This document shows positions 1,390 to 29,530 of a DNA stretch of 64,000 bases, in pieces. The notes under the pieces were generated by a model that worked only from the letters and a program-made list of their open reading frames with translations, made no database searches and was not told the DNA's origin. This DNA is from Thereva unica (lineage: Eukaryota; Arthropoda; Insecta; Diptera; Therevidae): the NCBI GenBank assembly GCA_949987705.1, contig CATLJY010000023.1:27921-91920 (forward strand), given 5' to 3'. The translations under genes and the position numbers were made by a program. Within the stretch, counting starts at the first letter, position 1, and the number at the start of each line of letters is the position of its first letter.

Positions 1390-2195
1390 GAACCATTATA
1401 GTATCCTTAAAGAGCTAAAATTTGATAAATTTGTTCGTCTGCTTTAATTGTAATATTTTGTTTTGTCATAAAATCATATGCGAATTCTAATTCACTGGGG
1501 CTAAGAGTTTGTTTTGATATTACATTAAGTTTAGCAAGAGTAATAGCTGCGGAAATTTCCTGAAGATGATTAGTTCATATTTCTATATTGAAATTTGTCT
1601 GATAAATATTCTGCAAATGCTCAAACGCTTTATTCTCGGAACGGATTCTCTGTGATATTGATGTTTGATATTCATAAAGATAATTTTGTATAATTTGTTG
1701 TTGGTCATTAATGTGGTTGGTTATGTTATTGAACCGTTCTAACATTTTATTATTTAGAAAAGTTTGTTTTGTCAGTCCATCTTTAAGAGTTTGTTGGTTA
1801 AATTGTAGTCCTTCAATTGCTTCGTTTATTTGTATTGCATCGTTTTCGTCCAAGTTTCCAGTAATAAATTTGATTACACTTCCTAAACCGTTTATCAGGC
1901 CCCTTTCTACTATTTCTACGTTTTGGGGATAGTGTCAAAAACTTGTGCTCTAATTCTTTAAATTTTAGATAAGTTATTTCTATTAATATTCTTAGATTGC
2001 TATCATTACTATTTTTTATTATTTCAACGGATTTTCCGAATATTTCTATGTTTTTACTGTATTCTGTTAGATTGACTATTAGTATTAATTTGGAGTGAGA
2101 TTCTATAAGTTTTCCTGATCCAAATTTCATTGATAATAAACCCTGACTATTCGATAGGTCCTGGATGATCTCTATCCGTTGGCATGATATTATTC
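1390..2195 (-). pseudogene. env: Errantivirus env remnant (frameshifted)
   Basis: Two minus-strand frames (1813-2130 and 1575-1853) together read like the F-type fusion protein (Env) of insect errantiviruses: a basic cleavage-site region, then a hydrophobic glycine-rich stretch followed by an Asn-rich helical region. The frame changes at about 1850, just after the basic site, so the gene is broken. No intact C-terminal membrane anchor is visible. It lies downstream, on the same strand, of the integrase remnant at 2200-2960, as expected for env after pol. It is more decayed than the Env at 4506-5873. Family assignment is from residue pattern only. Confidence 0.7.
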
Positions 2196-2199
2196 TGAA

Positions 2200-2960
2200 A
2201 TTTAAGTTTATTTTTTAGTTTATTCTTATGTGCTTTCCTATGATTAGGGGAAACTACAACTACTTTGCGATTAGATACTACTTTTAATTCCTTAGCTCTA
2301 GGAATCATTTTATTTCTTCTATTATTATATTCGTATACTATTTCATTTTGTTCGAAATCTCGTGGTGGTTCACGTTTTTTATTTAGATTATCAATTATCG
2401 ATTTATTACGGTTTTCTATTTTTGATTTAATTTTATCAAATAAATTCGTTTGTTATTCATGAAGTTTATTTAAATAATCGTGTTCCGTTTCATTAATAAT
2501 CCTATTAAATTTATATGTGACATTAGCTCATAAAACGTTAAATTAGTTACTGAATGGATTGCATTATTATATGTTATAAGTGCTTCATTTAACATATCTT
2601 TTGATATTAACTTTTTATCCTTATAATAAATTATTCTCTAGATTTCAGTGAACGTCGAGTGAAATCTTTCAGCTATTGAGTTACCTGTTGAGTTTTGAAG
2701 GGTAGTAATATGTATTCGAATTGAATATTGGTCGCAAAAGTCCTTAAAAAGATTAGATTTGAATTCATCAGCAGCAACAGCATCAACAGCACCACATATC
2801 AATTTCTTAGGGATGCCATGTTGTGAAAAGAATTCTCTTTTCTAGGTATGCTTACACTATTTCTTGCAGGTAAAATATATGCTGAGGCAAATTTTGAAAA
2901 TTTGTCTATTATTGTTAGAATATTTTCATTGTGAATATTATATATTAATATATTGTCATA
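2200..2960 (-). pseudogene. Errantivirus integrase remnant
   Basis: Minus-strand translation shows scattered integrase pieces: a core segment near 2900 resembling the IDKFSKF motif, the RFHST-type segment around the third acidic residue near 2665, and a basic C-terminal tail down to about 2200. Stops (for example near 2640 and 2525) and frameshifts separate them. The catalytic-core start and zinc-binding part are absent because the RTE-like LINE begins at about 2963. This is the 3' part of an old errantivirus pol and is collinear with the env remnant beside it. Confidence 0.7.
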
Positions 2961-4139: not shown

Positions 4140-4460
4140 AAAATAAAATGCTTGCAAATCACTTCAAGCAAGAAAAACAACACAATACTTTAAGTTTAAA
4201 CAAAATTTTATTTAATTGCGGGTTTTAAAAATGAACATTCCCGTGAGGCGTCGCGATTAGAACTCAGAGGCAGGGACAAGTCATGTACACTCGTTAGTTA
4301 TCTTTTTATGCCGAATCAGCGTCTGGCTTTTCAGAACTGGAAATGAATTTTCGCACGCCTTGCCAGGCGGAGTCATATTTCTTATATGTAGGAATTTTGG
4401 AGTCCGGTTCCGATTTATACATTTTGGAGTCCGGTTCCGAATTATACATAACGTCTCCCC
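4140..4460 (-). repeat. Errantivirus 3' LTR (approximate limits)
   Basis: On the minus strand a purine run (caaaggggggagacg, near 4455-4470) just after the env stop fits a polypurine tract, so the LTR should start at about 4455 and run to about 4140, where LINE sequence begins. It includes a direct repeat of about 29 bases containing ggagtccggttccga (near 4400 and 4428). No matching 5' LTR is visible to the right of gag, so the boundaries are estimates. Confidence 0.6.
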
Positions 4461-4505
4461 CCTTTGACATAGGATCCTCCTGGATCATATTTTGTATCTT
4501 AATTT

Positions 4506-5873
4506 TTAAATTTTTCTAAATTTATTTTTATTAAAATAAACTAATAATATAAATATTGTAATTAACAGCAATGAAAATAGGCTTACATTAGCGCCATATG
4601 TAACATTTTTATGCATTTGGAGTTCCTTAATCTTATTAATGTTCTTGGTATTGTGCAATATAATATTATCTAAGGTGAGCTTTTCAGTGAAATTTTTAAA
4701 TTCTTTATTTACAGGATAATAAAGTCTATCTTGAAATTTTTCTTCTTCGCTAGAAAAATAATGATCTAAAATTTTTATTGTACAATTATTAAAGTGCATT
4801 AGTATATTTCCTGATAGAATTAGTTTTCTGTTGTCACAATTTTGGCTAATATTTATTTGATTGGCATTCTTTATTACAATAGTCTCCTTATCTAATTCAA
4901 TTATTTCTGTATTTGTATTTTTAACTAAATTGCAATTTTCTTTATATATGCAATGTTTGCTTACAGTTAGTTCATTTAAAGTTTTATAATTTTCATATTT
5001 ATAAATAGTATCATTGATATGGAATACAATTTCTGAAGGATAATCGATTTCTTTTTGTTGACTATTAGGTATAGGCAAGATTACTTTTAATTGTACCATT
5101 AAAAATTCTCTAGGAAGTTTAATTGCAAAAATTAGTAAATCATGTCCTGATTTTGCCAATCCAACTTTAATATACTCTAGTTTTTCTAAATTTATTTCAT
5201 ATTTTTTAATTTCCTGGTCTGTAAGAAGACTAGGATGTAAGATTCCGAATTTGGCGGAAACAACATTGTCTTGCAAGTTTTCTATTTTATTTTTAAGAAT
5301 TTGAATTTTAAAAATTTGGTCATAATATATATTTTCGATCAATGTATTGCTTGAAAGGTTATTTATTCTGTTCAATATACTGTCTCTATCTCTTTTGGCT
5401 ATGTTTTTTAGTTGTTTAAATGTTTCGTTAAAATTTTCGTTAATGTCAATTTGTTGATTAATAGCTTCTATTACGTTATGGTTGTTCGAATCTAAAGCGT
5501 TTAAATGTTTGTCAATGTCACGTCGGTCTTCTTCATCCATGGTACCAAAGAGCCATTTTTGGGCGGTTCCCACTACATTAATTAAACCTCGTCGTCGCCT
5601 TATTGGTGGAATAAGTGTCTGAACTATGTTTTCTAAATGTCTTAGTTCTGTAAGTATTAACTCTTTACGCTGTCCGTCTAATTTAGCTGCGTTAGTTTTA
5701 AAATCGTGGATAACGTTTAGAATTTCCTTGGTATTGATAACATGAATAATTATATTTGTTTTAGATACTATTTGGACTTTATTTAATCGAATTTCAGTAA
5801 ACCCTGCTTGTTCTTCCATATTGTAAACGTTTAACCATCCTTGGACTGGTGTGGTTACGGTAAACATAATCAA
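4506..5873 (-). CDS. env: Errantivirus envelope fusion protein, open reading frame intact
   Basis: About 455 codons. Visible parts: a basic RRRR cleavage site at residues 92-95, a hydrophobic glycine-containing stretch right after it (about 96-113) fitting a fusion peptide, a long coiled-coil-like Asn/Leu-rich region, several N-x-S/T sites, and one C-terminal membrane segment (about residues 430-447) with a short basic tail. This is the layout of the baculovirus F-like Env of errantiviruses, which sits in the membrane and mediates fusion. The listed start is a TTG; the first ATG is residue 3. Hydrophobic codons extend upstream to a likely splice acceptor, so the N-terminal signal peptide is probably completed by splicing. 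No internal stop is seen, unlike gag and the front of pol. Confidence 0.85.
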   Translation of the reverse strand: MIMFTVTTPVQGWLNVYNMEEQAGFTEIRLNKVQIVSKTNIIIHVINTKEILNVIHDFKTNAAKLDGQRKELILTELRHLENIVQTLIPPIRRRRGLINVVGTAQKWLFGTMDEEDRRDIDKHLNALDSNNHNVIEAINQQIDINENFNETFKQLKNIAKRDRDSILNRINNLSSNTLIENIYYDQIFKIQILKNKIENLQDNVVSAKFGILHPSLLTDQEIKKYEINLEKLEYIKVGLAKSGHDLLIFAIKLPREFLMVQLKVILPIPNSQQKEIDYPSEIVFHINDTIYKYENYKTLNELTVSKHCIYKENCNLVKNTNTEIIELDKETIVIKNANQINISQNCDNRKLILSGNILMHFNNCTIKILDHYFSSEEEKFQDRLYYPVNKEFKNFTEKLTLDNIILHNTKNINKIKELQMHKNVTYGANVSLFSLLLITIFILLVYFNKNKFRKI

Positions 5874-5887
5874 AAGTGCTGCGAAAA

Positions 5888-5910
5888 GCTGTAAATAATG
5901 TAAATAATAA
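5888..5910 (-). promoter_or_regulatory. Candidate 3' splice site for env mRNA
   Basis: Minus strand reads a T/A-rich tract ending tttacag directly before codons for a hydrophobic run (LFAALLIMFTV) that leads in frame into Env. Errantivirus env is known to be made from a spliced subgenomic RNA. An acceptor here would give Env a signal peptide and a start codon from an upstream exon. The site is inferred by eye; the donor is not identified. Confidence 0.45.
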
Positions 5911-5947
5911 AGTTTGTATGTTAAAGAAATCGCGTTTATATTCGCTT

Positions 5948-7756
5948 TTACGTTAGTTTTGCTTGTACTATGTCTAAAATCATTTTTTCGCGGAAATAAG
6001 GCATGTCGCCTTGGGTAAATACGGGTTTGCTATTTCTGGAGATGTATTTGGCGACCATACAGCTGAAAACGCCGCAATCACTCCCATTAGTTTGCTTTGG
6101 TGTATCATTTACATTTTCTTTAACGAATGACTTTGTGTCAAACGTTCCGTTTTGTTTATCCATATATTCTTCTTTTAGATAGTTTTCTAAAGCGTTCAAC
6201 ACTTCCGTATTTGGATTTCCCATAGAATCGTAATACTTGATAGATTTATTTCTGAAGTCAATTACTGCCATACACCAATGTACGCCATTAACATGTACTG
6301 GGATCAAAATTATGTCATATGCGAAAATATTAACTTTTCGTGTCCATCTGCGGATTGTACTGAAGCCTGATTTTAAAAGAATTGGCGCAAAGAAAGTGTT
6401 CATTACATATACTTTAGGCAAATCGGTGGGTGTATTTTGTTCGCTTCGCTCCATTAGTAAGTTTAAATAAAAATTAATAATATTGTCATTGAGCCATTTA
6501 CCTTCCTTTAGGGTGTTAATGTCCTGTCGGGTTATATTCAGATTGAATTTGCTCACTTGAACTTCGTCCTGTGGTCCGTCATATAATGCTTTATTGATAA
6601 CTAATTTTTCACTTTCCGTAATAATTTTATCATTTTCTTTACTTATATATAATTCTTTATTAATAATTAATTTCTCACTTTCTGTGATCACTTTATCCTT
6701 TTCTTTGCTTTGGTCTGCATAATTCGGTTTCCTTTTTATATTTATGGGATGTACATTTTTTAATTTCGCCTCTCGGTATTTTGGTAGGTGCTTTAATCTG
6801 GCTGCTTTATAGTTTTTGATAAAGCCTGTTGTTCTGATTTCTTGATAGTCTTCCCTGTTTTCGTTGCGTTTCTGCAGGTATTTATCTTTAAATTCCTTCA
6901 AGTTCTTTCGGATCTGATCGAAATCTACCTTATGAAATTGTACTTCTGCAGGTGTACATTTTATAGTTGAATGGAAACGATTGTTGTAACTATTAACGGC
7001 TTGTTGTAGAATCCGTCGTGCTGAATGTTTATTTTCGGTTAGAATTATTGTTCTAAATATTTCGACTAACGTGCTGTGTAGTCTCTCGATATCGGCTAAT
7101 CCTGTGTGACTATGCGCTTTAGTGAGATGTAATATGACGTCTTTTTCCTGTAAAAATTCTTTAATATGGATTCCATAGAATTCGTTTCCTCCAACGATTT
7201 TCGCTGGTTTACCCAGTTTTGCGAAATGGTCTTCCAGTTGCTCAATAATTGTTAAATGGTTTCTATCGGTCAAGTAATATACCGCTGCAAATTTCGAAAA
7301 TTTATCAATTACGGTTAGGAAACTGTGTTTCATAATCGTATAAATGTCCATGTGCACGATTTGGTTGATGTCAGTAGCCGTTTCTGTGTATTTAAATTTA
7401 GGTTTAATCGGGTGTCGGTCATATTTGACCTTTTGGCAGACATCACATTGGCTAATTACGACTGTAATCAATTCTAATAGCTTTGGAAAATAAATTTTGT
7501 TTTTAATAGCATTAAACGTTTCCTGGATTCCGGAATGTAAACTTTCTTGAACATGGTAGAAGGAGATTTGTTTGACGGCTTCAGTTTCTGTTTCAATGTC
7601 TTGGGCATTGAATGAACATCTTAAAAATCTTATGCTGTTGTCGTTAGAGAACATTTCTCTTATTTTCTGTTGTACCACATTGTATTTACTGTCTTCGAGT
7701 TCTGTATAAATCCCAATTCTTCCCTTTTTTATATATCTCCTGAGTATATCGGACAA
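5948..7756 (-). CDS. Errantivirus integrase fused to a SENP/Ulp1-like SUMO protease
   Basis: 602 codons, C-terminal part of Pol, so no start of its own is expected (first codon is TTG). Residues 68-107 form the HHCC zinc module (H68, H74, C104, C107). The integrase core has D137 and E224, but GGNEF at 189-193 puts Gly190 where the second catalytic Asp is expected. Residues about 270-350 are the basic C-terminal part. Residues 352-394 are a linker with an imperfect 21-residue duplication (ITESEKLIINK, ITESEKLVINK). Residues about 405-602 match the catalytic domain of SENP1-type deSUMOylases: WLNDNIINFY, RWTRKVNIF, H493 (VHWC), D510 (YYDSMG), Q555 and C561 (NGSDCGVF), MPYFR near the end. All catalytic residues of the C48 peptidase are present. 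Host capture is inferred. Confidence 0.88.
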   Translation of the reverse strand: MSDILRRYIKKGRIGIYTELEDSKYNVVQQKIREMFSNDNSIRFLRCSFNAQDIETETEAVKQISFYHVQESLHSGIQETFNAIKNKIYFPKLLELITVVISQCDVCQKVKYDRHPIKPKFKYTETATDINQIVHMDIYTIMKHSFLTVIDKFSKFAAVYYLTDRNHLTIIEQLEDHFAKLGKPAKIVGGNEFYGIHIKEFLQEKDVILHLTKAHSHTGLADIERLHSTLVEIFRTIILTENKHSARRILQQAVNSYNNRFHSTIKCTPAEVQFHKVDFDQIRKNLKEFKDKYLQKRNENREDYQEIRTTGFIKNYKAARLKHLPKYREAKLKNVHPINIKRKPNYADQSKEKDKVITESEKLIINKELYISKENDKIITESEKLVINKALYDGPQDEVQVSKFNLNITRQDINTLKEGKWLNDNIINFYLNLLMERSEQNTPTDLPKVYVMNTFFAPILLKSGFSTIRRWTRKVNIFAYDIILIPVHVNGVHWCMAVIDFRNKSIKYYDSMGNPNTEVLNALENYLKEEYMDKQNGTFDTKSFVKENVNDTPKQTNGSDCGVFSCMVAKYISRNSKPVFTQGDMPYFREKMILDIVQAKLT

Positions 7757-7978
7757 ATTATCAAAATCATGTTCTTATATATATATATTTTTATTTTACC
7801 ATGAATAGCCTCAAATTCTTTCGTTTTATTATTAGTAAGGATTAGTTGTGTTTTATATTTGTTAACTATTTCTTCCTTGATCGGAATATAATCGAGTAAT
7901 TCTTCTTCTGCTGAATGCTTAGTCGCCATAGTTTGTTCATCATCTTCTATGTTACACAAAATTCCTAAGTCTGAAAAT
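7729..7978 (-). pseudogene. Errantivirus pol linker between RNase H and integrase
   Basis: An acidic frame containing HSAEEELLDYIPI, typical of the errantivirus segment joining RNase H to integrase. It overlaps the start of the integrase frame but is in a different frame, with the change near an AT microsatellite-like run at about 7775-7790, so Pol is interrupted here. Upstream coding continues to about 7978, where the inserted Gypsy LTR starts. The matching upstream piece is the RNase H fragment at 13876-14299. Confidence 0.7.
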
Positions 7979-7983
7979 GTGTT

Positions 7984-8357
7984 TGTACGATCATCAGTTT
8001 TGTAGTCGCCTTTATGGCGAAGTTTACGAAATAAATGGAAACACTGCCTTTAGTTTCACTTATTGTAATTTATTGTTTACACTTCACTTTTTCAATCACA
8101 ATTTTCTTATTTCTTATAAATCAATAAAATTGCACTTTGCATATACATATACGTATTAGAATTTCGCGACGGCTTCTTTTAAAGGTTCGATCTAGTCGTG
8201 CACGAGGAGAAAAGGAAGATGCCGGAAATGTGGCTAGATCGCTGAACTTTGGAGTTCAGTGATCGAGGGAGTGTTCGGACTGATCGTTTTGATCGTGCCG
8301 GAAGTTGTTGTGTGACATTGCGTAAAGTTTGGTAATTAAACTTTACGCGGTCACTAC
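7984..8357 (-). repeat. Gypsy B 3' LTR
   Basis: On the minus strand it starts tgtagtgaccgcgtaaag and ends gatcgtac(a), about 374 bases. It contains a hairpin near 8322-8348 (gcgtaaagttt / aaactttacgc). Its first 19 or so bases recur as the outer right end of the element at 13857-13875; the rest of the LTR is not found on the right side. Confidence 0.75.
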
Positions 8358-8373
8358 ATACTCCCCCCCCAGC
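8358..8373 (-). promoter_or_regulatory. Gypsy B polypurine tract
   Basis: Minus strand ctgggggggggagta lies directly before the LTR start, between the pol stop and the LTR, the normal place and composition of the plus-strand primer. Confidence 0.75.
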
Positions 8374-8379
8374 GTAGCG

Positions 8380-11300
8380 TTAACGAAATGTTACCGCTTT
8401 AGACGGCTTAGCTTCGTTGTCGCGGTCGCAACCGAAGGCTGGCTTTAGCCTGTCAATGGATATTGACTTGGTTGTGCCGTTCAATTTGACAACGAAGTGT
8501 TTTCGTAATCGTTTGATTACTTCATATGGGCCCTCATATGGAGGTTCGAAAGGTTTTCGAACTCTGTCGACTCGTATGAAAACGTAGTCAGCGTTCTCCA
8601 GGGCTTCTGGCACGTAGACATCCTTTTGGACGGGTTGCCGAGGATGTGTTGCCTTAATGTTCTGCATGTGAGAACGAAGGCGAGAGAGGAATTCTGATTC
8701 TTCAATTGGATTCTCATCCGTTGGGATAGAAATCGAATTGGGAAGTCTCAGATTCTGACCGTATACGAGCTCGGCTGGTGAGCATTGTAAGTCGGTCTTA
8801 ATTGCCGTGCGTATGCCTAACATGACAAAGGGCAAGTCTTCACTCCAATGAGTAGTGTTGTGCCTTGCCATTAAGGCTGCTTTAAGTTGCCTGTGGAACC
8901 GTTCAACCATCCCGTTTGCCTGCGGATGGTAGGCGGTAGTCCGAATTCGATGAGTGCCGAGTAATTTGGCAACTTCATTGAACAGTTTCGATTCGAACTG
9001 CGTACCTTGATCGGTTGTGATCTCAAGAGGTACGCCGAATCGTGGGACAAATTCAGTGACGAATATTCTTGCCACTGTTGAAGCTGAGATATCCCGAATT
9101 GGGTATGCTTCAGGCCATCGCGTGAATCTATCGACTATCGTTAAGATATAAGAGTATCCACGAGATGGGGGTAGTGGTCCCACTATATCCATATGGATAT
9201 GGTCAAATCTATTATTTGGAAGTTTGAAAGCCTCCAATGGAGATTTGGTATGCCGTGAAACTTTGGACTTTTGGCAACCTAGGCATGATCGAGACCACTC
9301 ATTGCAGTCTTTATTGATCGATGGCCAGAAGTATTTCTTGGTAACGGCTCGTCTCGTAGCACGAATACCAGGATGAGAGAGACTATGTTCGGAGTTGAAC
9401 GCTAGTCTGCGTAAGGAAGTGGGTATGTAAGGCTTAGGAATGCCTGTACTAGTCTCACACCACACCTGATGGGCGGTAAATGGTATTGGTGTGAGAATTA
9501 GTTTTACCCGTGAGCCGTTGCTGGGGTGCTCTTGAAGAGACTTCAACTCTGTGTCACCTTGTTGAGCCTGAGCCAGTGTAGGCAGGTCGAAGGTGGCCGA
9601 GTCGACGTTGTCGATTGCTAGTGAGCGTGACAAGTAGTCTGCGACAACGTTTTGTTTACCCGACACATGTCTGATGTCTGTGGTAAACTGAGAGATTAGA
9701 CCCAAGTGTCTGGTCTGTCGAGGGGATCGTTCGGTCTTTGTGTGAAGGGCGCGAACCAGTGGTTTGTGATCAGTATAGACCACGAAATTGCGTCCTTCAA
9801 CGAAATAACGGAAGTGTTTGATCGCTGCATAGATTGCGAGAAGTTCGCGATCGAATGCAGAGTACTTCCGTTCTGTTGGTGACAGCTTTTTGGAATAAAA
9901 AGCTAGAGGTTGCCACCGATGACCGTTGAATTGTTCCAAAACGCCTCCGATTGCATAATCAGAGGCGTCAGTCGTAAGACTGTATTTTGCATCCTCGATT
10001 GGATGGTTCAGCAGAGTTGCTTCAGCCATCGAGGTTTTCACCTTGAGGAATGCCGCCTGACATTCTGCTGGCCAGTCAAAAACTTTATTGGCACGTGAGC
10101 GGTTGAGAAGGTCTCTCAAATGCTCGTTTATCGGCACCAACTGTTCAGCCAATTTTGGGATAAATCGGTGATAGAAATTCACCATTCCCAAAAACTTCTG
10201 GATCGATTTGACAGAAGTTGGAGGTGCGAGATCAACGATAGCCTGAACCCGATCGGAGGATGGAAGTATTCCATCCTTTGTGATGCGGTGGCTTAGAAAC
10301 TTAATCTCTGTTGCACCAAAAACGCATTTCTCTAGCTTAATAGTTAAACCGAAGCTATCGAGGCGTTTAAAGAGCTCTTCAAGGTGAACGATATGCTCAT
10401 CCTCGGTTTTACTGGCGATAAGTATATCGTCCAAGTATACATAAACGAAGTCGAGATCTCTCGTAACTTCATTTATGAACCTTTGAAAGGTTTGGGCTGC
10501 ATTTCGTAAGCCGAATGGCATACGTGTAAACTCATATAGGCCGAATGGCGTAATGAGTGCAGTCTTATGCACGTCTTCTGGGGCGATTGGTATGTGATGG
10601 TATGCACGTACCAAGTCAACCTTTGAAAATATTGTGCAACCGTGAAGATTCACGGAGAAGTTCTGTATGTGCGGGATTGGATATCTATCCGGCACAGTGA
10701 CAGCATTAAGGCGACGGTAGTCGCCGCATGGCCTCCAATCATGTAAGTCCCGTTTAGGGACCAGATGAAGCGGAGATGCTGCGGGGGACGACGAAGGTCG
10801 ACAAATCCCCAATTGGACCGTATGGTCGAACTCTAACTTTGCCACCTTCAGTTTCTCCGGATGGAGTCGCCGAGCGGTGACAAATGGTAATTGCCCTTTA
10901 GTTACAATGTGGTGTTGCACATTGTGTTTAACCGGAAGGTTAAAATTGGGCGGTTTTGTTAACGAAGCGTACTTCGTTAATAGCTCTTTGTATATGCCAA
11001 TAACTCGGCATGGAAATGTTTCGGGGTTGTAGTCGACGGTAGCGCACACGTTAATGCGAAACTTCGTGCGCTTGTCGACTAAATGCCGATATTCAAAATC
11101 GACGGACAATTTGAACTTCGTTAAGAAGTCCGCCCCGAGAATGGCTTTAGTGGTGTCGGCTATAATAAAGTTGTAAACATATCGTCGGCGTAAGCCGAGT
11201 TCAAGTTCAAGCAACTTAGTGCCGAAAGTTCGGATCAGTGATCCGTTGGCCGCGTACAGAAGGACGTTCGGGCTACCGTTATGGGCCGGGAACGCCTTGG

Positions 11301-11418
11301 CGGGAACAATTGAAACGTCCGAGCCCGAATCAATCAGAAAGTCTATCCGATTGTTGGTGTCACGGACGAATAAACGATATGAGCGGCCGGTTATATGCTC
11401 GCTCGAATCGATCCCCAA
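8380..11418 (-). CDS. pol: Gypsy B Pol polyprotein, open
   Basis: 1012 codons, complete domain order. Aspartic protease at the N-terminus ([13 protein letters not shown], near residue 27); RT with [24 protein letters not shown] and catalytic [11 protein letters not shown]; RNase H with [24 protein letters not shown] and YTDHKPL; integrase with a zinc module (H-x3-H, C-x2-C in CLGCQKSK), [18 protein letters not shown] and [15 protein letters not shown], so D, D and E are all present. No internal stop. The first codon is not ATG (TTG), so Pol is probably made by frameshift or readthrough from gag. Style and gene order fit the CsRn1/Kabuki clade of Ty3/Gypsy. It looks capable of enzyme activity, but the element's 5' LTR is nearly gone, so it should be unable to transcribe normally. 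Confidence 0.92.
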
Positions 11419-11424
11419 CTTTAG

Positions 11425-12294
11425 TTTTTTTTAGGGGTGGTGGCCTTTTTCTTCGCCGGTTTGGCTTGACCACCACCGAAACTGCAGGGGGCTTTGCAGG
11501 TGCGGGCTTCATTACCGTAACGGTAATGGAAGTAGCAGAGGCTACCCCGCAGTTTGTTGGCCCCTTGTGGCCGAGGGTTGTCGGGAGCCGCCCTGCCGAT
11601 TGGCAGGTGTTCGGCTTCTTGGGCTGCGCTGGTTTCGGTCCAGCCTGTCCAGCCGAACTGTCAGCCTATTGATAGCGCTTTGCAGCGCCACCAATGTGGG
11701 TTCCGCTGTGGCAGGTGTTGCGCGGACGGCGGAAGCGTATGAGGCGCCTCCGTGTGGAAGCACCTCCCAAACTTTGTCCGCTACGGCGGCTAGCGCGGGT
11801 AACGACTGGTCAGCAGCGGTGGCCAATGCGACCTGAATGGCCTGTGGAAGCCTACGCTCCCACAGGTTCCGGATCAGGTCGTCGTTGACTGCTGCCGATC
11901 CTCCGGCTAGTGCCTTAAGAGCCTGGAGGAACTCAGAAGGTTTTCGGTCTCCAGGCTCTTGAACTGACAGCAACTGCTCGAGACGGCGCTTCTCCGAAGT
12001 GCCGTACTTCTCGAGCAGATACTGTTTGACTTCCTCGTATGAGGACTCAGAATAATCTACGGTGCTTAGCCGCATTGCCGTTACCGCCTCTTCAGGCAAT
12101 GCGGCCATGACATTGTAGACCTTAGACGAATCTGACCTGCAGCCCGCTATTTTAAACATAACGTCTGCCTGGTAGAACCAGGAAGCGGGTTGGTGTACCC
12201 AGAACTTCGGGATATCTAGTTTCGTCAGTTTGACGGCACCGACTTCCGAAGTTCCGGGTTTTGACTCTTCCGTGCGTGGAACGTCTTGTTCCAT
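11425..12294 (-). pseudogene. gag: Gypsy B Gag with frameshift before the zinc knuckle
   Basis: ATG at 12294. The 250-codon frame carries a CsRn1-type capsid (IPKFWVHQPASWF, YNVMAALPEEA, KPSEFLQALK, LWERRLPQAIQVAL). It stops at about 11542, but the CCHC-like segment (CYFHYRYGNEARTCKAPCSF) follows in another frame at about 11475-11535, ending KKKATTPKK near 11430. So a frameshift near 11545 separates capsid from nucleocapsid, unless recoding is used. Pol follows at 11418. Confidence 0.8.
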
Positions 12295-12535
12295 ATGGCT
12301 TTCTTCTACGTTTGATATTTTTGTAATTTCAAAACGAATCGGCGTAAAACAAAAGAAATTAAATCACGAACCAGAAAACTGTTAGGTTTATATATTTATA
12401 TATATGTATATATATATATTTGTATATATACTCGTATGTATGTATATGTATATGTGAAAAGTGTGTAAATTATATAAAGCCAAGAAAATGTATTCTATAA
12501 TGTGCTTACGTTGTATATATGTATGTTTTCTATAA
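12295..12535. other. Gypsy B leader remnant, AT-rich
   Basis: This should hold the primer-binding site and 5' LTR edge, but no TGGTGACCCC-like site nor LTR match is seen. There is a TA-rich run at about 12390-12450. Nothing else recognised. Confidence 0.5.
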
Positions 12536-13596
12536 TCTTATATATTAATAGGCAAACAAAAAGTTTGTACACGCTAAGGCTTTTTTGTTCGTGGACCGAT
12601 TTCGTTTAAATTTTCAGAAAATGTTCTTTTAATGGCATAGTTTTGTAATAAGGAATTTCAACGAAATCGATTCACGAATAAAAAAGTTATAGCGATTTTA
12701 ATTTTTCGGATTTTAAAAAGCCGTTGGAAAATTTGAATTTTTTGTGAGCATCAACGTAGAGCTGAGTAGCCTACGATTGACACAAATGCCGTTTCAGTGA
12801 AGCGAATGAGAAACAGAGAAAAACAAGCGTTTGTGTGGATTTTTGGCGGCATAACTGACATAAAAAAACTCGGCCACTTTGTGCGTGCATTTTTTTATAC
12901 TCTTTTGTGTATAGTATTATTGAGTTGTATTGTGTAAGGGGCTGCCGTTCGTTTTTTGGCGAATGCCTTTAGAAATTTTAATTGATTCATTGCACCTTTA
13001 GAAATTTTGACTGATTCTTTTAAATGTGCTTTGAATGTTATTCCGGTTAATTTTGATTCGTTTTCGTGTGGTTCTTTTAATATGAGTTGTCATTTTTGTC
13101 GTGCCAAACATTTTCTGACTGAAGTAACTTTACGTAATACTGAGGCATTTTCTTTGTGTTGTCATAAAGGCAAAGTTAATCTACCTCCACTTTCTCAAAA
13201 TTACTTTTTCAATAATTTTTTTGAAGGATTAACTTCGAATGAAAGTGGTATTAAAAGTCGTTCTAAAATTTTTTTTGCAAATATTCGTTCGTATAATGCT
13301 GCCTTTGCAATGATTAGCTCTGAGTGTAATTTGTCAAATGACACTGTAAATGGCATTTATCATTTTACCACATAGCCAAGCAAGACGTCATGGATGCGAT
13401 TAAAAAAATCCTGGGAAATTTTAGATGCTCTGGAGCGACAATGGAAATGTTTCATAGTAATTAAAAATTCGCCATTGCGAATAATTTTTTTTTTTTAAAT
13501 AAAAATATTTAAATTGAATTTAAATTCGAACAAATCGAGAATTTTATATATTTATTGGTTTTGTGACCGAATTTCGGTAACGGGGATCCCAACTAG
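12536..13596 (+). mobile_element. Short Helitron with a Rep N-terminal fragment
   Basis: Starts TCTTATATATTAATAGGC after an A and ends CTAG before a T (13593-13597), with a short palindrome (ggggatccc) just upstream of the end. A|TC...CTAG|T with a 3' hairpin is the Helitron signature. It contains a Helitron-type open frame (13007-13375). At 1.06 kb it cannot encode a helicase, so it is non-autonomous. It lies where the Gypsy B 5' LTR should be. Ends are by eye; the frame is the stronger evidence. Confidence 0.6.
13007..13375 (+). pseudogene. Helitron helicase-like N-terminal fragment
   Basis: 122 codons; the first ATG-led part starts at MSCHFCRAKHF (about 13081). It shows the N-terminal Helitron zinc module: CHFC, then FSLCCHKGKVNLPPL, then a FFANIRSYNAAFAM segment. 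These are the features just before the Rep nuclease domain in autonomous Helitrons. The HUH nuclease motif and the helicase are missing; the frame ends at a stop in sequence with no further match. A captured or truncated remnant. Confidence 0.8.
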
Positions 13597-13875
13597 TAAT
13601 ATATTTAAACAGAATAAATGTATTTTAATGTATGTAAAACGAGAATTATGTATTATATGTATATATGTGAAAAATTTTTTTATATGTGATAAATAATTCT
13701 TATCTATATACGTGCCACGTCCAACAATATATTTTTAGAGAAAAACTTCAAATTAGTGTATTTTTAAGTTATATAACCAAAAATCTAGTATATAGAAAAA
13801 AAACTTAAAAATATGTCTATATGTAGGTATATATGAAAATAAAAAAAAAAAAAATACTTTACGCGGTCACTACAG
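13597..13875. other. AT-rich DNA ending in 19 bases of Gypsy B LTR
   Basis: No gene. Low-complexity A/T sequence ends in a run of 14 A and then actttacgcggtcactaca, the outer LTR end of Gypsy B. Possibly degraded 5' LTR or filler left after rearrangement. Confidence 0.5.
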
Positions 13876-14299
13876 TTTCTTTGACTAAAAGTTCCACATT
13901 TCCTTTTTCGGATTTAATGCGGCTCAAAAAATCAGCAACTTTATTTTCACGGCCTTTGAGATAATCTATTTCAAATTGATACTCACCGAGTTTCAGAAGC
14001 CACCGTTGATGCCGAGGTGATAAATCTCTACCTCGATATTTGGCTTGTAAATACTTAATGGGTTGGTGATCGGTAAAGATTTTAAATTTGTTGCCATACA
14101 GATATGGTCTAAAATAATTGACAGACCACATGATGGCTAAAAATTCCTTATCCGTCGCGGAATAATTTTGTTCGTGGCAATTTAGGGTACGAGATGCGAA
14201 GCAAATAGGGTGTCCATCTTGTGACAAGACGGAGCCTATTGCGAAGTTTGAGGCATCTGTTGTTAATTGGAATTGCCGGGTAAAATCTGGGAATCTAAG
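13876..14299 (-). pseudogene. Errantivirus RNase H fragment
   Basis: Minus frame with TTDASNFAIGSVLSQ, DKEFLAIMW, FTDHQPI and the ENKVADFLSRI end of the connection/RNase H domain. The frame is cut at 14299 by the BEL insertion; its upstream part continues at 22639 to 22711. Downstream it is cut at 13876 by Gypsy B, and coding resumes at 7978. The open frame as a whole reads a few codons into the Gypsy LTR. The acidic residues of RNase H seen here are intact. Confidence 0.85.
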
Positions 14300-15592
14300 T
14301 GTTAAATGCAAACTGAAGAGTTTAGGAATAGAAATTAAACGCGTCAGTTAACAACCAAGTTTTCTTTATTTATGAAAAAAATGTTAAATATATAAAACAA
14401 ATTTAATATAATTTTATATACTTATGCTACTGGACTTTGAAATATAAGCATACAGCGCCACTATAACCTAATTGGCATATGTGTGACACAATCACTTAAT
14501 ATTTGTCTAAGTCCTTATTAACGTTTGAAGTTCTTGCAAATCTTTGAGCATATATAACTTCAATTACTATTTAGCATATAGAAGTTTGATCACTCAATTC
14601 GTTTGCTGCTACCACGCGACTGGTCATGAGTGCTGTTGGTGCTCGGATTTTATAGCCAGGAAAGCAACGGTCCAAATTCAAACACCAATATTCTTACTAT
14701 TTTTATTCAAAATGGCCACATATATTTTTATCAATGTATTTTTGAAAATATATGTATCTCGTTCTTTTTATCCTTTTTGTTTTCTTTCTCTTTCACTCTT
14801 ACTACCTTTTATGAAAAAATTTTATTTATCTTAATATCTTTTTACACATAAAATATTTTGCCTTTCTGGTCACACCATTGAATTCCTCTTTAAATTTTAC
14901 TGTGGTTTCATGTATCACACCATGACAATACGTAAAGTTTGATTTTGACGTTTGTCGCCGGTGTTTTTATCGCGAAGTCGCGCGCGTATAATTTCGCGTA
15001 AAAAGTGCGTTTTACGTGTTTTCCAGTTGTCTTAAGGTAAGTAAAAGCCTTTGCGCAAGGTTTTTAGTGTTTATGCTGTGTGTTGGTGTTATATGTGCAT
15101 GTGAACTATGTGTTTTTTGCTTGTTTCAATGTTTGTCCATAAAAGGTAGGTTATGTGTTATTCTATGTTTTTCATTTAATATTTCACCTGGAAGTTTAGT
15201 TTATTTTCATGTTAATTCACAGGTGAAATATTATTTAATATACTTTCCATTGTTTCACTGCGCTAGTGTTTAATTTATGTTAATTGTGTTGATTTTTGCT
15301 TTGTTTACATTTTTATGTACTTGTTGTTGTTGTTTTTATGTCATTTTGATATTTGTTATTGGAGTAGAAATTCCTTGACTTCTTGTGGAATTTCTACTTA
15401 TATGTAAATAAATTCAATATTATTTAATTAAATAATTAATTTTTCTTGTACATTTTTAGATTTGGCCGAATAATTTGGAGTTTCTGGATACAACCCGATA
15501 GGTATATTTTTTTGTTTTTAATTTTATAATAATTCAATTTCTTTTTAAGTATTTGTGTTTTGGTTTTTGTTTTTTAGGTTTGGGGTCAAACA
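14300..15592 (-). repeat. BEL 3' LTR
   Basis: On the minus strand begins tgtttgaccccaaacc and ends gcatttaaca (TG...CA). Nearly identical to 21346-22638. Confidence 0.95.
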
Positions 15593-16008: not shown

Positions 16009-19000
16009 TCATGGAGTCAAGGTGTCATCTGGAGGCGTCAGTTGGTCTATAGGCAAGCGACAGATTTTGGTGACTGGCCTTAGAAAGGTATTGTGAGCCG
16101 TTCGGACTTGCACTACTCGTATCAGACCATCTTGTCCCGGGAATGTTTTTTCGACAGTGCCTAGAGGCCATCTCAGTGGTGGCAAGTTTTCTTGCTTGAT
16201 GAGAACAATGTCGCCAACTTGGATATTACGTTGTTCCTTGTGCCACTTCTGCCTTTGCTGGAGTTGGTTTAAGTAATCCTTGGTCCACTTATCCCAGAAT
16301 CCTTTAACTGTTTGTTGGATTTGTTTCCAACGGCGTGAGAGAGATACATTTTCGTCAGGACTTGGCTCTGGTATGGCGTTGAGTGCATGTCCAATTAAAA
16401 AATGCCCAGGCGTAAGTACGAATGGATCATCTGGGTCATTTCTAACGTAGCACAGTGGACGTGAATTTAGGCAAGCTTCAATTTGCGTAAGTATTGTGGT
16501 ATATTCTTCGAACGTGTAAACTGAATTTCCTATTGCTCTGCGTAAATGATGTTTGACGGACTTTACACCGGCTTCCCAAAGACCGCCGAAGTGTGGGGCG
16601 GCGGGTGGATTGAAGTGCCATGTAACTTGCTTCGATGTAAAGAAATGCGCAGCTTCTGGAGTAGCTTCTTTTATGGCTTGTTTGAGGTCTTTGTCGAGCA
16701 CGAGCTTTGCTCCTACAAAATTCGTACCACAGTCGGAATAGATATTAGCACATAGACCTCTTCTAGAAATGAACCTCTTCAGAGCGGCGATGAATGCGGC
16801 TGTTGATAAGTCTGACACTAGTTCAATATGTACCGCCTTGGTTGTGAGGCAAATTATAACACAAATGTATGCCTTTTGTAGTTTTGCGTTTCTAATCGTG
16901 GACGTTTTCATTGTGATGGGTCCAGCGTAGTCAATGCCAATATTTGTGAACGGTTTGGCTATGGTGACCCTGGGTGCAGGTAAGTGTCCCATCAGTTGTG
17001 TCATCGTTTCGCCGCGATGTCTTGCACAGGTAATGCATTTATGAATACGATTAGTTATACAACGTCGAGCATCTAAAATCCAATATTTTTGGCGTAACGT
17101 GGTTAGTACGAGAGATGTTCCACCGTGAAGTGTTCCTAGATGTGTTTGGTCAATTATCATGTGTGTGACAGTGTGCTGTTGAGGTAAAATAACTGGGTGT
17201 TTCGCATTGTATGACATCGTTGTGTTATTCAGTCTCCCGCCTACTCGAATCAGCCTATCCTCGCCCATGAAAGGAGTTAACTTAAGTAACCGGCTACTGT
17301 GTGGTAGTGGTTTTTTACTTAGCAGATTGGTGTATTCAACTGGAAATTCTGATTGTTGAATTAAGCGCAAAATTGTATTTTCTGCTTCTTGCCATTCAAT
17401 TGCGGAGAGATAATTAAGCCTTTTACATTTGGAATGCTTGCAGTTATACGTGAACCTCAGGATTAGAGCGACGATGCGAACGAGTCGCGTTATTGTTGAA
17501 TAGCGCAGCCACAAGTTGTCCTTTGATTGCACAAAAAAGGAAGTTATGGTTGGGTTTTTTGCTTCCAACTTGGTCTGCCCGTTGATTTCTCGAACTTTAG
17601 GCCATTCATCTTGTCTTTTAGTCAACCAACTTGGGCCGTGCCACCAAAGCTGACTGTTGACCACTTTGGAGGCTGGCACTCCTCTAGATGCCAGATCTGC
17701 TGGATTATCATTTGTTGTAACATGTCGCCATTGATCGTAGCGTATGACTTCTTGGATTTCAACTACGCGATTTGCGACATACGTTTTCCACTTGGATGGA
17801 TGTTCTTTGACCCATTGTAGTGCTATAGTGGAGTCCGTCCATGCGAAGGTTGGAATGTGCTGCAGCTGCATGTCTTCAAGAGTCGTTTTTATTAATCTGG
17901 CCAAAATTACGGCTGCGTTTAGTTCCAATCGAGGGATTGTGGTCGGTTTGGTAGGTGCTACTCGTGTTTTTGACGTGAGGATTCTCGAAGAGATTTCCCC
18001 GTCGCTGGACTCGACTCGTAGGTACAAAACGGCAGCGTAAGCTTTGACTGAAGCGTCGCAAAACCCATGTAGTTGCATGTTTGCGTTATTAGAATATCCA
18101 ATCCATCTGGGAATTTGAAGAGCTTCTATGGTCCTTAAGTCCTGTTTGAACGTACTCCATTGACGTTCTATATGACTGGAGACTTGCTGATCCCATGAGG
18201 ATCCTGTAATCCATAGGGATTGCATTAAAATCTTTGCGATGATGAGAACGGGTGATAACCATCCTAATGGATCATACAAGGATGCTATGTCTGACAGAAT
18301 GTTTCGTTTCGTTGTAAGATTATGCTCCCGGATTGATGTAACTACAAAAGTGAAGTAATCAGGCCCTGGATGCCAGCGAATGCCAAGTGTTTTTATGACA
18401 TCGGTTGTAGTAAGCATCAAAGTTGTCTTTAACTCTCGGTGTTCCAGTGGCACATCTTCTAGTAATGCAGGATCGTTGCTCGTCCACTTTCGTAATAGAA
18501 AACCACCTGCCTTTGTTATGTTGATCAGTTCCCGTTGTAGTATTTTTGCCTCTTTGATGTCATCAGCGCCAGTTAGCAAGTCATCCACGTAAAAGTTTTT
18601 AAGGATCGCCTTGGATGCTAATGGCCAGGTTTTCTTTTCGTCTACTGCTAGTTGCTGCAGTGTTCGGATAGCTAAATACGGTGCACATGCTGTGCCGAAT
18701 GTCACTGTTTTTAGCTTGTAATCCTGTGGTAGATGTGTTTGAGGATGCTGCCATATGATCCTCTGGTATGTTTGATGGTCCGGATGCACTTCTATCATCC
18801 GATACATTTTCTCTATGTCAGCATTCATAGCGATTTTGTATTTCCTCCAGTTAAGCAAGGTTGCGAAAAGTTTAGGCTGCAGTGTGGGTCCTATTAGAAG
18901 TTGTTCATTGAGGGATTTTCCATTTGATGTTTTGGCGGAGGCGTCGAAAACCACTCTCAATTTAGTTGTAGTGCTTTCTTTAAATACTGCGTGGTGAGGA

Positions 19001-21258: not shown

Positions 21259-21324
21259 GTTGAAAATCTGAAACTACTCGAACACCGAAACTATAAAGCG
21301 AACTTGATTGTGCTGCACGCGTAT

Positions 21325-22638: not shown

Positions 22639-23917
22639 CTAAGTATGGGATGGGATGTAATTAGACTTTTGAGTTTTTCAAATGCATTTATGAAATTTGG
22701 ATCATTTGTGTTTATTCTACTGTCTTTTTCAGATATTTGGTAATAGGCTGAGCAACTTTAGCGTAATCTTTCACGAATTTTCGGTAAAAACCAGTAAGAC
22801 CTAAGAAACTCTTGATTTCTTTTACAGTTCTTGGTATTTCCAGATTCTTTATCACACTAATTTTCTCAGGGCTCGGCTTTATTCCGTCCTTAGTTATTAC
22901 ATGTCCTAAAAATGGGGTTTCTTTTTCTAAAAATCTACATTTGTCTATCTGAATTTTTAGTTTGTGCTGACCTAAGGTTTTAAAGATTTCCGAGATAGCT
23001 TTGACGTGTTCCTGAAGGGATGTACTAAATATTAGGACGTCGTCAAGGTATACAACGCAGGTTTTATTTATGAAATCCCTCAAGACATCATTCATAAGCC
23101 TTTGGAACGTCGCTGGGGCGTTCTTCAGGCCAAATGGCATCCTATTGTATTCATAAAGTCCGTGTGGGGTGATGAATGCCGTCTTCTTCCTGTCCTCCTC
23201 TCTTATTAGGATTTGGTGATAACCTTTCGCCAAATCGATTGTTGAGAAATACTGGGCTCGGCCTAGTTTATCTAGGATGGCATAAATGTTGGGCAGTGGG
23301 AACTTATCGTCCACTGTTACCTCATTTAATCTTCGGTAGTCAATGACTATCCGAAATTTTTTCTCAGCAGAATTATCGCTCTTTTTCGGCACTACAATTA
23401 ATGGGCTGGAATACTTGGAGTTACTTTTGCGTATTATTCCTTGTTGTTCCATATCCGCAATCTGTCGCCTAACTTCTTGCTCATGTTTGGGCGGGTACCT
23501 GTAAAGTTTTGCGTTTATTTGGTTTTCCGTGGTCGTGATGATTTCATGTTGAATGCTTGGAGTGCTAGTCAACTTATCACCTTCTTTAAAAAATAAATAT
23601 TCGAACTTTTTAACTAATTCGACAACTGCCTGGTATTCGTCAGGGTTTAAATGATTGAGTTGGAGACGTTTTAAATAATCATTTTCTACCGGTTCCAGTG
23701 AACACACCTGGTCCATTGGATGAGATTTATTTAAAAATGGTAATATTTGGCCGTTGAGAGAAATGTGTTGGTACTTAATATTAACGTCGGTTTTTAGTTT
23801 ATTTAATAGATCCATACCGATAAGGAATTGATAACTTCGTTTAACTAGGTTTCTAACCTTCCAACGAATAATAGCTCCTGGTGGAAGCTTAAACTCCTCT
23901 GGGGGTGGTGTATGCAC
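22639..23917 (-). pseudogene. Errantivirus reverse transcriptase, nearly intact
   Basis: The open part 22712-23917 (401 codons) has the linker after protease, then [43 protein letters not shown], the catalytic VVYLDDVLIFS, and the FLGHVITKDGIKP thumb start, ending in the connection domain (FLGLTGFYRKFVKDYA). A one-base frameshift at about 22712 moves the rest (to 22639) into another frame, and BEL then interrupts it. Upstream, protease coding (23918-24120) is also in another frame, so Pol is broken at least twice here while the RT core is complete. Confidence 0.88.
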
Positions 23918-24120
23918 TTCGTAATTTAACCGTAACCGTGGTGAACTTTAATGGCTTTATTTTAATTTTAAAGAAATTAGGTAATTTAGCATCAATAATG
24001 CTAAACGAAGATCCTGTATCGATTAGGGCCGTATATTTTACGCCATTGATGGTGATGTGGATTTGTGGTAATTCGTCCGAGGCTAGTTTAGAAAAAACTT
24101 TTCTGCTTCTTCTGACATCC
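23918..24120 (-). pseudogene. Errantivirus protease
   Basis: Minus-strand frame contains IHITINGVKYTALIDTGSSF, the retroviral aspartic protease active site (D-T-G-S). It lies just before RT in a shifted frame, and is cut at 24120 by the 3.5-kb insertion. Its Gag-side continuation is at 27653. Confidence 0.75.
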
Positions 24121-24159
24121 CAACTGTAACTGTCTGAGGATTACTATGTGCCAGGGCAC

Positions 24160-27652: not shown

Positions 27653-28864
27653 CTGGTTTAATTCAGCATCACCGGTTACCCTTTTGTATCTACTTTCGTT
27701 TGGAATATGTTTTGAGTTGTAGTTTTTCTGAGAAAATTGACTTCGATTATTACTGAGGGGTTGGACGTTGTCCACTTCCATAGATGTGGTCGGATCTCGC
27801 CGCGAGAAGGAATGACCTCTAAAGTTACCTTGTGTAAAATTGGGTTTGAATTGACCGGAGTTATAATTGTTGGGACTATATTGATTTTTTGAATAATAAA
27901 AACGTCTTTGGTCTGTATTAACATTTTGTGAGCGGTGGTTTCCGGAGTTTTGTCTATAATTGTTGTGGTAAGTCTGTCTAGTCTGTTGTTTAAATTGTCC
28001 TGAATTTTGTCTGTTATTATAATTTGGACTTTCATTTCTATTTTTAAAATTTTCGACAACTCTACTTGAAGTTAAAAACTTTGATTTTTTAAACTCATCC
28101 CTAATGCACGCATCTTCAAAACGCCTTTCACGCATTACCTTGATGATTTCTAAAATATTAGTCATTTGATAGATTTTATCTAAAAGCACTCCTTGAGACA
28201 TTTCTTTTGCTGTATTTGCAAGGAGTGAATCAACATTACTTAAATCTATGCACGTATTATTTTTATAAGCTCATCTGTTTTAAATTTAATTTTTTGTAAT
28301 TCTATAGCTAACTCACTTACTGTTTTTACTTTTAATCCGCTAATTCTCCGATAGATTTCCGCCGGTTCGACGTCGGGTTTATAACGCAGCTTCAATGTTG
28401 CTTTTATCATCTCCCAGTTGTCTGGTTCCCTAATGTTTATTACTGCGTCCTTGGCTTCGCCTTGAATCTTCTCGAGAAAAATCATCCTGGTTGTATCCTT
28501 TCGTAGTTGTGGGTCCACAATTGCGTTGGGGAAAACTTCCATGCTCGTGATGAAGGAATTTATTGAAACATCACCTCGTCCCGTATATGTACTCATGTGC
28601 CTGAGTTCCTTTAAAACCATCTGCCTAGGATCGGCTACATTTCTTACATTGAGTTCCTGTATTGCAGCTGCTAGTCTTCCGATTGGTTCTTGATTTTGAT
28701 TTTGATTTGCAACTAATTGTTGCACCGCCACGCTAATTGGGCAATTTCCTCCTCACGTTCCCTTAGTTTCCTTTGAAGTTCACTAATTTGGTCCTCCATT
28801 TCGTGGCTCACTATGTTTCTGCTAGAGTTGAACAGCGATTCCCTCCTTCGCCTTCTTTCGGACA
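27653..28864 (-). pseudogene. gag: Errantivirus gag with two frameshifts
   Basis: ATG at about 28864 (MSERRRRRESLF) opens a coiled-coil-like segment (EMEDQISELQRKLREREEE). A one-base shift near 28735 leads to the main part (28246-28731) with ELRHMSTYTGRGDVS and WEMIKATLKLRY, the errantivirus capsid style. A second break near 28201-28246 leads to the Asn/Gln/Arg-rich C-terminus (27653-28201), which replaces zinc knuckles in this group. The 3' end is cut by the 3.5-kb insertion at 27652. Role: particle formation. The frame breaks make it non-functional as it stands. Confidence 0.82.
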
Positions 28865-29530
28865 TGCACCACTTTACACTTTTATATTAACGTTTTTAAT
28901 TTGTTTTGTTTTAGTACAAGATCAGGAGCAACCTCACTACCTCGTTGTGACGTTTTTAGGCCTTGTTGTCACTCTTGTTTAGCACTCGCACTTATTTATT
29001 TTAACCTTTTTTTAATTACGCGGCAATTTAGGTTTTACTTCTTCTCGAATTTACCTAATATCGACGCGTATTTCGGTTTATTCTTTCCGAACGTTACCGA
29101 TAAAAATTAAAAAAACGTAAGTTTTCGCGAGTTCAAAGTTTCAAAGTTCTATTTTTGAATCTTTTTTTATTATAAACGGAAGGCTTTGTAAATTAGTTAA
29201 TCGAAAAAATTAGCAATAGAACGTTGCGCGTTTTCGAGAAAATGTCATTTAAAAAATCCCCTACAAAAAAATACACACTACCACAAATTTTAAGCCCTTT
29301 ATCATAAACCAATGAACTTATAATATAATACAAAATTAAAGAAGAATCAAAATACCTTGCTTGATCACCGACATAACACACTTCCGCAGATTTCATCGTT
29401 AAACGTTAGAAATTAATGTTTTTATATCGCGCATAAACTGGTATTCCTTTTTCGCAGAAGTATTATTTTCCCTAAACTATGAACTTTATGCTCATGCGCT
29501 CGCTGACTCATAGCAGTCAGCGACTTAATA
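28865..29530. other. Errantivirus leader and old flank, no gene
   Basis: Expected to hold the errantivirus leader and 5' LTR, but nothing here resembles the 3' LTR at 4140-4460 and no primer-binding site is evident. A palindrome-like gctgactcatagcagtcagc lies at about 29502-29521. Confidence 0.45.

Follow-up and report, generated by a model that had tools for sequence, protein, structure and literature searches.

An errantivirus integrase joined to a SENP1-type SUMO protease domain in the fly Thereva unica, and its relatives

Errantiviruses are insect endogenous retroviruses of the family Metaviridae (the gypsy-17.6-ZAM group). They share the order long terminal repeat (LTR), gag, retroviral protease (PR), reverse transcriptase (RT), RNase H and integrase, together with a Baculo_F-type env that overlaps the end of pol. 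Here we describe a 64,000-nucleotide stretch of the genome of the therevid fly Thereva unica (contig CATLJY010000023.1, positions 27,921 to 91,920; hereafter the window) in which an errantivirus integrase runs, in a single open reading frame (ORF), into a SUMO protease domain of the SENP1/Ulp1 type (peptidase family C48). In all 113 of the C48-free relatives that were extracted, at most 43 residues follow the integrase (truncation by contig ends was not checked individually), whereas here about 220 residues of SENP1 do so.

Ulp1-like proteases have been described in several other mobile elements. The nearest precedent is provided by the Ginger1 DNA transposons of Hydra and others, whose Gypsy-like integrase ends in an Ulp1 domain (PMC2836005). 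Ginger1, however, is a DNA transposon with terminal inverted repeats, whereas the element described here is an endogenous retrovirus: it has RT, env and LTRs, and its SENP1 domain is of fly type. The nematode non-LTR retrotransposons NeSL and Utopia-1_TSP also encode an Ulp1-like protease domain (PMC4640811) but in those elements it is N-terminal, rather than C-terminal to the integrase of an LTR element. The plant KIU/VANDAL Mutator-like elements, which are DNA transposons and a loose parallel only, have captured an Ulp1 whose role is called unknown, and VANC proteins are linked with loss of silencing (PMC13317346). Bdelloid rotifer LTR retrotransposons carry captured ORF3 enzymes (esterase, exonuclease) common to several lineages (PMC5408684), but these occupy a separate ORF and are neither fused to integrase nor SUMO proteases. 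The initial annotation of the stretch, made from its letters alone, was right to name DNA transposons as carriers of Ulp1 but missed the closest case, Ginger1, as well as NeSL and Utopia. No errantivirus with Ulp1 or Peptidase C48 was found in the open-licence literature, nor, among the matches listed there, any env-bearing LTR element with Ulp1, the search not being aimed at silencing antagonists generally. Open-licence papers on errantiviruses and SUMO included none about a viral protease, judged from titles and abstract openings, and the main text of a paper on insect endogenous retroviruses (PMC12992720) mentions neither SUMO nor Hermetia.

The fused frame and its relatives

The frame and its parts are as follows.

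5948..7774, minus strand: C-terminal part of errantivirus Pol (integrase) plus SENP1/Ulp1-type peptidase C48, an open frame of 608 amino acids from stop to stop (ORF, Pfam, PDB match)
7421..7561, minus strand: zinc-binding Integrase_H2C2 domain, residues 72-118 (Pfam PF17921, E 6.3e-8)
7112..7366, minus strand: rve-like integrase core, residues 137-221 (rve 2.6e-4, under the Pfam cut-off in the window copy; homologues align across the whole integrase)
6623..6712, minus strand: integrase-protease linker, residues 355-384 (sequence)
5951..6622, minus strand: SENP1-like domain, residues 385-608, with the Pfam match at 426-602 (Pfam, PDB, predicted fold)
6278..6280, minus strand: catalytic His499 (alignment)
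6227..6229, minus strand: catalytic Asp516 (alignment)
6092..6094, minus strand: Gln561, which we take to be the oxyanion-hole residue (alignment)
6074..6076, minus strand: catalytic Cys567 (alignment)
4506..6029, minus strand: Env frame of 507 amino acids, a Baculo_F-type fusion protein, overlapping the 3' end of Pol in a different frame (Pfam Baculo_F 1.3e-8)

That an errantivirus integrase and a complete C48 domain share one open frame, as the initial annotation had claimed without stating the strand, is borne out by the ORF itself and by the Pfam and PDB matches. The profile check that it had suggested places Peptidase_C48 (residues 426-602, E 6.2e-45, 154.1 bits against a cut-off of 20.7) and Integrase_H2C2 above the Pfam cut-offs and rve below. 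Against PDB sequences the frame matches SENP1 at 6e-65 and SENP2 at 2.8e-58, so that by sequence comparison the resemblance of the protease to SENP1 is far above chance level. The fold predicted for the protease by AlphaFold from 37 aligned rows (predicted local distance difference test 96.0, predicted template-modelling score 0.92) resembles SENP2 and human SENP1 in the PDB with template-modelling (TM) scores of 0.96 and 0.95, respectively. The fusion is in frame and the active-site residues are intact, the full His-Asp-Cys set plus Gln being H499, D516, Q561 and C567; the residues had been correctly picked out before as H493, D510, Q555 and C561, numbers that shift by six in the 608-residue frame, where the motifs WLNDNIINFY and MPYFR lie at 427 and 591. 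The linker of the window copy contains an imperfect internal duplication (KxxDKxITESEKLxINKxLY, twice) whose second copy extends into the protease domain, and the same is seen in the copy at L002.

The protease domain gives 78 six-frame matches in the T. unica genome (910 Mb, 930 contigs), a figure that is not a copy number, because several matches are split pieces and the total also counts the window itself, SENP1 of the host (C4:105918649) and, at C2:93052760, a remote Ulp1-like frame. We examined 56 loci around protease matches and sorted them by eye into about five families, A to E. Family A, to which the window belongs, comprises 12 loci (L001-L012). Compared with the window, families B-E are 27-41% identical in aligned integrase stretches, 21-28% in env and 54-62% in the longer protease matches (short pieces vary more). 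An integrase match is present at 43 of the 56 loci and an env match at 47. In 14 cases (five in family A, three in B, four in C and two in D), a near-complete protease match free of internal stops sits in a frame of 1200-1617 amino acids. The longest of these frames, at L006 (1617 amino acids), continues in the same frame for about 290 residues beyond the protease into env. A further candidate, at L029 (C1:150838957, 1475-residue frame), is not counted among the 14, as a stop lies within the protease. The earlier placing of the protease between integrase and env, in the Pol of an env-bearing Ty3/Gypsy element, thus holds for the window and for those relatives with unbroken frames.

These relatives carry LTRs, gag-position frames, pol and env, and include recent copies. 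LTR pairs were found in three of the four copies tried (344 bp with one mismatch in family C, 340 bp with two in family B and 375 bp with one in family A; 99.4-99.7% identical) and the insertions that they bound look recent; the fourth, a family A copy split by another element (C5:67226775), gave no LTR pair in the pieces examined. Frames of 459 and 506 amino acids, called as gag by position, are present in families B and C, and a retroviral protease motif of the DTG/DSG type is kept in families A and C (by eye, L058 and L060). H2C2 and rve are present at L016 and L026. Baculo_F env (in families B and C, at L016 and L026) and C48 score above Pfam cut-offs. The LTR pair, the Pol order PR-RT-RNase H-integrase and the Baculo_F env support classing the window element and its relatives as env-bearing Ty3/Gypsy elements, that is, errantiviruses. 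The idea that the element is a Ginger1-like DNA transposon and not a retroelement draws on the identical domain order, integrase then Ulp1 (PMC2836005), but is left with a negligible probability by the RT, RNase H, PR motif, gag-position frames, env and LTR pairs of the sampled elements; a Ginger1 transposon can be ruled out for the sampled families, in which RT, env and direct LTR repeats are present (terminal inverted repeats were not searched for).

Three further loci in this genome deserve mention in their own right. At L033 (G000:C280:33003-38187), two protease domains lie about 1.5 kb apart with env-like sequence after each, a local duplication of the protease and the start of env. At L036 (G000:C1:141252548-141256210), a frame of 581 amino acids has unrelated coding-like sequence, rich in Glu and Arg, upstream of an errantiviral protease, possibly a chimeric element or gene. 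The remote Ulp1-like domain at L054 (G000:C2:93051260-93054829), 26% identical, lies in a 1567-residue open frame at a locus without integrase or env match.

The fusion junction, whole or as two halves, is also present in at least five database proteins, a lower bound among the matches listed (120 of 543 and 120 of 186). Three come from Hermetia illucens: P0001, with integrase and C48 and 58% identity across the whole window frame; P0022, with the end of integrase and C48; and P0045, in which C48 and a Gypsy-type env share one model, the Gypsy env profile falling just under its cut-off. The remaining two, P0236 (1254 amino acids) and P0240 (1212 amino acids), are 'lgn' records, presumably Logan contigs, each with RVT_1, RNase H, H2C2 and C48 in a single chain. 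Every full-length match in the T. unica genome (loci to L056) is at most 60% identical to the proteases of P0001, P0022 and P0045; short pieces come closer, at 71% over 58 residues (L053) and 94% over 16 (L052). In the IMG/VR viral collection, three stretches matched a pattern and none was a relative. An assembly join, or the lone chance insertion of a piece of a host gene, is ruled out as the source of the junction by its presence in many genome copies and in other records. The retroviral integrase-protease frame P0001 is publicly annotated as 'ubiquitin-like-specific protease 1' of H. illucens, and SENP gene counts in such flies may be inflated by Pol frames mislabelled in this way.

Selection on the protease and its origin

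The catalytic His, Gln and Cys are each kept at 53 of 53 readable loci and the Asp at 51 of 53 (L052 and L053, two of the 54 non-host loci, span the domain incompletely). HW and DCG are found without exception, in the 34 clean full-length copies as well as the five database proteins, while YYD reads YYN in P0045. In families B-E the protease has been under purifying selection: the ratio of nonsynonymous to synonymous divergence (dN/dS) is 0.08-0.21 in ten out of ten family pairs (B, C and E with a single representative each, D with two). Against the host gene dS could be estimated in four of five pairs (1.8-2.5), and the ratio in these is 0.05-0.08, and for the integrase 0.05-0.08 in the unsaturated pairs (4 of 10). 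Within families the protease values run from 0.05 to 0.69 with few changes per pair. When sequences were mutated at random to an equal nucleotide divergence, just 2 of 1000 mutants remained stop-free.

Where did the protease come from? The tree with host SENP1 genes that had been proposed in the initial annotation was run and shows two viral groups. In a 41-row protease tree, the window groups with three Hermetia rows and two lgn rows (support 93/99; 95/98 in a 39-row tree without the lgn rows), while ten representatives of families B-E form a second group (100/97) that is sister to the SENP1 gene of T. unica itself (100/99). Forcing a single viral clade costs 23 log units with 41 rows (p 0.007 in the approximately unbiased (AU) test) and 12 log units with 39 rows (p-AU 0.044), p-values that are somewhat optimistic because the groups were named after a first tree had been seen and 24 host rows were picked by hand. 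For both trees those 24 rows were retained from among 71 other rows, the host gene (L020) was added, and near copies (>97% identical) among the 34 clean full-length copies were dropped; in the first tree, of 75 rows, very distant sequences such as P0088 and P0089 had upset the result, and the viral rows were not resolved. The integrase tells a similar story. The integrases of the window group cluster with a support of 98/94 for three rows in a separate tree. In a tree of 107 rows, 98 of them protease-free (P0022 was left out as too short), four rows of this group have a Shimodaira-Hasegawa-like approximate likelihood ratio (SH-aLRT) support of 89 and are placed among protease-free elements. 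The five integrases from families B-E lie in a distant clade, likewise amid protease-free elements. As both the protease and integrase trees separate the window/Hermetia group from families B-E, there appear, by sequence comparison, to have been two separate captures, one in the window family together with the five database proteins, the other in families B-E. Within the second capture, two integrase lineages are not sisters, yet one clade for the B-E integrases was not rejected (p 0.33), and one acquisition by a single backbone followed by losses within these families is possible.

A single capture followed by divergence and many losses would fit the identical position of the protease after integrase in both groups, the less than maximal support for the window group (95/98 with four rows, 93/99 with six), the unresolved first tree and the borderline first AU test (p 0.044). 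We nevertheless consider it improbable, given the sister relationship of families B-E with the T. unica SENP1 gene, the rejection of one viral clade once P0236 and P0240 were added, and the distance between the integrase backbones, which many protease-free lineages separate. The protease might also be a passenger, a non-functional host sequence carried along by the element. Transduplicated host fragments are known to occur in transposable elements and the window copy is dead, but the low dN/dS, the kept active site, the recurrence at one position and the unbroken frames make this very hard to believe, and for families B-E the passenger reading is largely refuted.

With regard to the route of capture, the host SENP1 gene has a 102-bp GT..AG intron after the GDE of YRGPGDE, inside the part that was captured and a short way upstream of the Pfam-defined core, and the viral copies read straight through this point. 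Since the intron is missing from the viral copies, capture is, on this comparison, via the host SENP1 messenger RNA. The viral copies differ from the SENP1/Ulp1 of flies in lacking both the intron of the host gene and the long N-terminal part of the homologue P0092. Families C and E seem to retain remnants of what precedes the catalytic domain in the host, such as EENARK...EFPELT in E (by eye). The catalytic domain is 62% identical to the T. unica SENP1 in the case of the window and 73-79% in the B-E representatives.

Once captured, the protease has probably been exchanged between elements by recombination. Between families B and C its synonymous difference is 0.54, compared with 0.84 for integrase and 0.73 for env. 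The protease value is below that of env in six of six family pairs (E with only part of env), and the 95% interval for the integrase-minus-protease difference lies above zero in eight of ten pairs, spanning zero for L016-L030 and L039-L021, in the latter of which both values are around 0.4. The protease is thus synonymously younger than integrase and env, which argues that the cassette moved between lineages. Codon constraint might in part explain why the protease has diverged less at synonymous sites; this is countered by the control pair L039-L021 (0.409 against 0.431), and the pair L016-L030 is not significant.

The window copy and its neighbours

The copy in the window is degraded by nested insertions and, by comparison with copy L002, by a frameshift just upstream of 7774. 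The description of the frame as errantivirus Pol therefore stands for the fusion but not for Pol as a whole, since RNase H and RT are split off by the insertions and the frameshift lies upstream. The following parts could be assigned to the element or its family.

7775..8000, minus strand: Pol upstream of the frameshift, comprising the RNase H-integrase spacer and the start of integrase (98.7% to copy L002 over block 8000..4437)
13873..14347, minus strand: RNase H of the same element, separated from integrase by another Gypsy element (Pfam, comparison with family copies)
22712..24124, minus strand: PR/RT region, placed in the family by 93% identity with L058 across 269 bases (24124..23867); the RT frame, 23947..22712, was recognised by eye
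28265..29133, minus strand: Gag region, placed in the family by 98% identity with copy C893, L071
4105..4452, minus strand: 3' LTR belonging to this element (91% identity with that of copy C893)

The 3' LTR stands alone, no second LTR of the element having been recognised in the window. The other Gypsy element, nested between RNase H and integrase at 8050-13872 (minus strand), has an unbroken Pol frame of 1016 amino acids (8380-11430) and a DUF7041 frame in the gag position (11542-12363). Elsewhere in the window are an unbroken 1754-residue frame at 16009-21273 (minus strand), which looks like a BEL/Pao Gag-Pol, and an unbroken 1003-residue frame with endonuclease- and RT-like text at 41498-44509 (plus strand), apparently a non-LTR retrotransposon. 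A tandem array with a period of 118 bases occupies 51-1176 (eight overlapping 300-base registers, 68-100% alike), and pieces at 1575-2452 (minus strand) resemble a second, different errantivirus env (by eye).

Possible functions of the protease

Overall, the window is best explained, we think with good reason, as a degraded errantivirus copy whose Pol ends in a catalytic domain that was derived from a host SENP1 messenger RNA. SENP1 and SENP2 are SUMO proteases, and tryptophans that line the tunnel have a role in proteases of the SENP type. Because the fold, the H-Q-C residues and these tunnel tryptophans are kept in the families of the T. unica genome and in the five database proteins, the domain is, as judged from sequence and the modelled structure, likely to be an active SUMO isopeptidase. 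As it extends integrase at the C-terminus without a change of frame, it would more probably than otherwise work while tethered to integrase.

What might such an enzyme act upon? The initial annotation had raised two options, removal of SUMO from capsid or integrase and the countering of SUMO-dependent piRNA silencing, and both are still conjecture. SUMO has a role in PIWI-interacting RNA (piRNA) silencing in flies (PMC13195609; PMC7272611). By analogy, our tentative proposal is that the targets are host silencing factors from which SUMO is removed locally. The protease would be packaged as part of Pol and travel to chromatin with the pre-integration complex; there, at the incoming or new provirus, it would strip SUMO from host silencing factors. 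Candidates are the Panoramix/Su(var)2-10/SetDB1 arm of silencing by piRNAs and further corepressors that depend on SUMO. Removal of SUMO could then buy time for expression before heterochromatin forms. That capture apparently happened twice suggests that the elements gain by interfering with the host SUMO system. Put in its broadest form, and with less than even confidence, the proposal is that fly endogenous retroviruses have at least twice taken a host SUMO protease onto their integrase, to counter silencing by erasing SUMO where they integrate, and have traded the cassette between lineages in an arms race with SUMO-dependent silencing.

Alternatively, the protease might serve the element's own proteins, keeping Gag, integrase or Env partners free of SUMO for the sake of stability, assembly or integration. 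It is fused to integrase, at the same position in both captures, and according to one review, which also cites work on SUMOylation of integrase itself, SUMOylation of the HIV-1 integrase cofactor LEDGF matters for integration (PMC10144533). On the other hand, 98 of the 107 integrases in the tree manage without a protease, and we regard this role as rather unlikely, favouring local removal of SUMO from silencing factors over action on viral proteins. A role in polyprotein maturation, in which the domain replaces or aids the retroviral aspartic protease, might be imagined from its position inside Pol, but families A and C retain the DTG/DSG-type motif and the fold matches SENP1/2, so this has next to nothing to recommend it.

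A number of observations weigh against the idea of a functional, anti-silencing protease. The window copy is itself broken, so that while the junction is visible in the window, there is no active element there. No integrase match lies nearby at 13 of the 56 loci and no env match at 9. The catalytic Asp is replaced by Asn in P0045 and L044 and by Tyr in L043, and some members with an altered Asp may be weak or dead. Conservation of residues between two families is weak evidence, as 30% of random mutants keep both the His and the Cys. Many dS values are near saturation, those of the window family against the rest being saturated in five of six comparisons, and selection on the window family is measurable only between near-identical copies. 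Finally, the silencing target is inferred from Drosophila.

Env-bearing elements are clients of piRNA silencing, and SUMO is a central signal when flies silence transposons, whether through piRNAs or through other heterochromatic routes. An apparently twice-captured SUMO protease, maintained by selection in families B-E, makes counter-silencing by SUMO removal directly testable. It also indicates that a host enzyme can be recruited onto integrase and apparently shifted between retroviral backbones.

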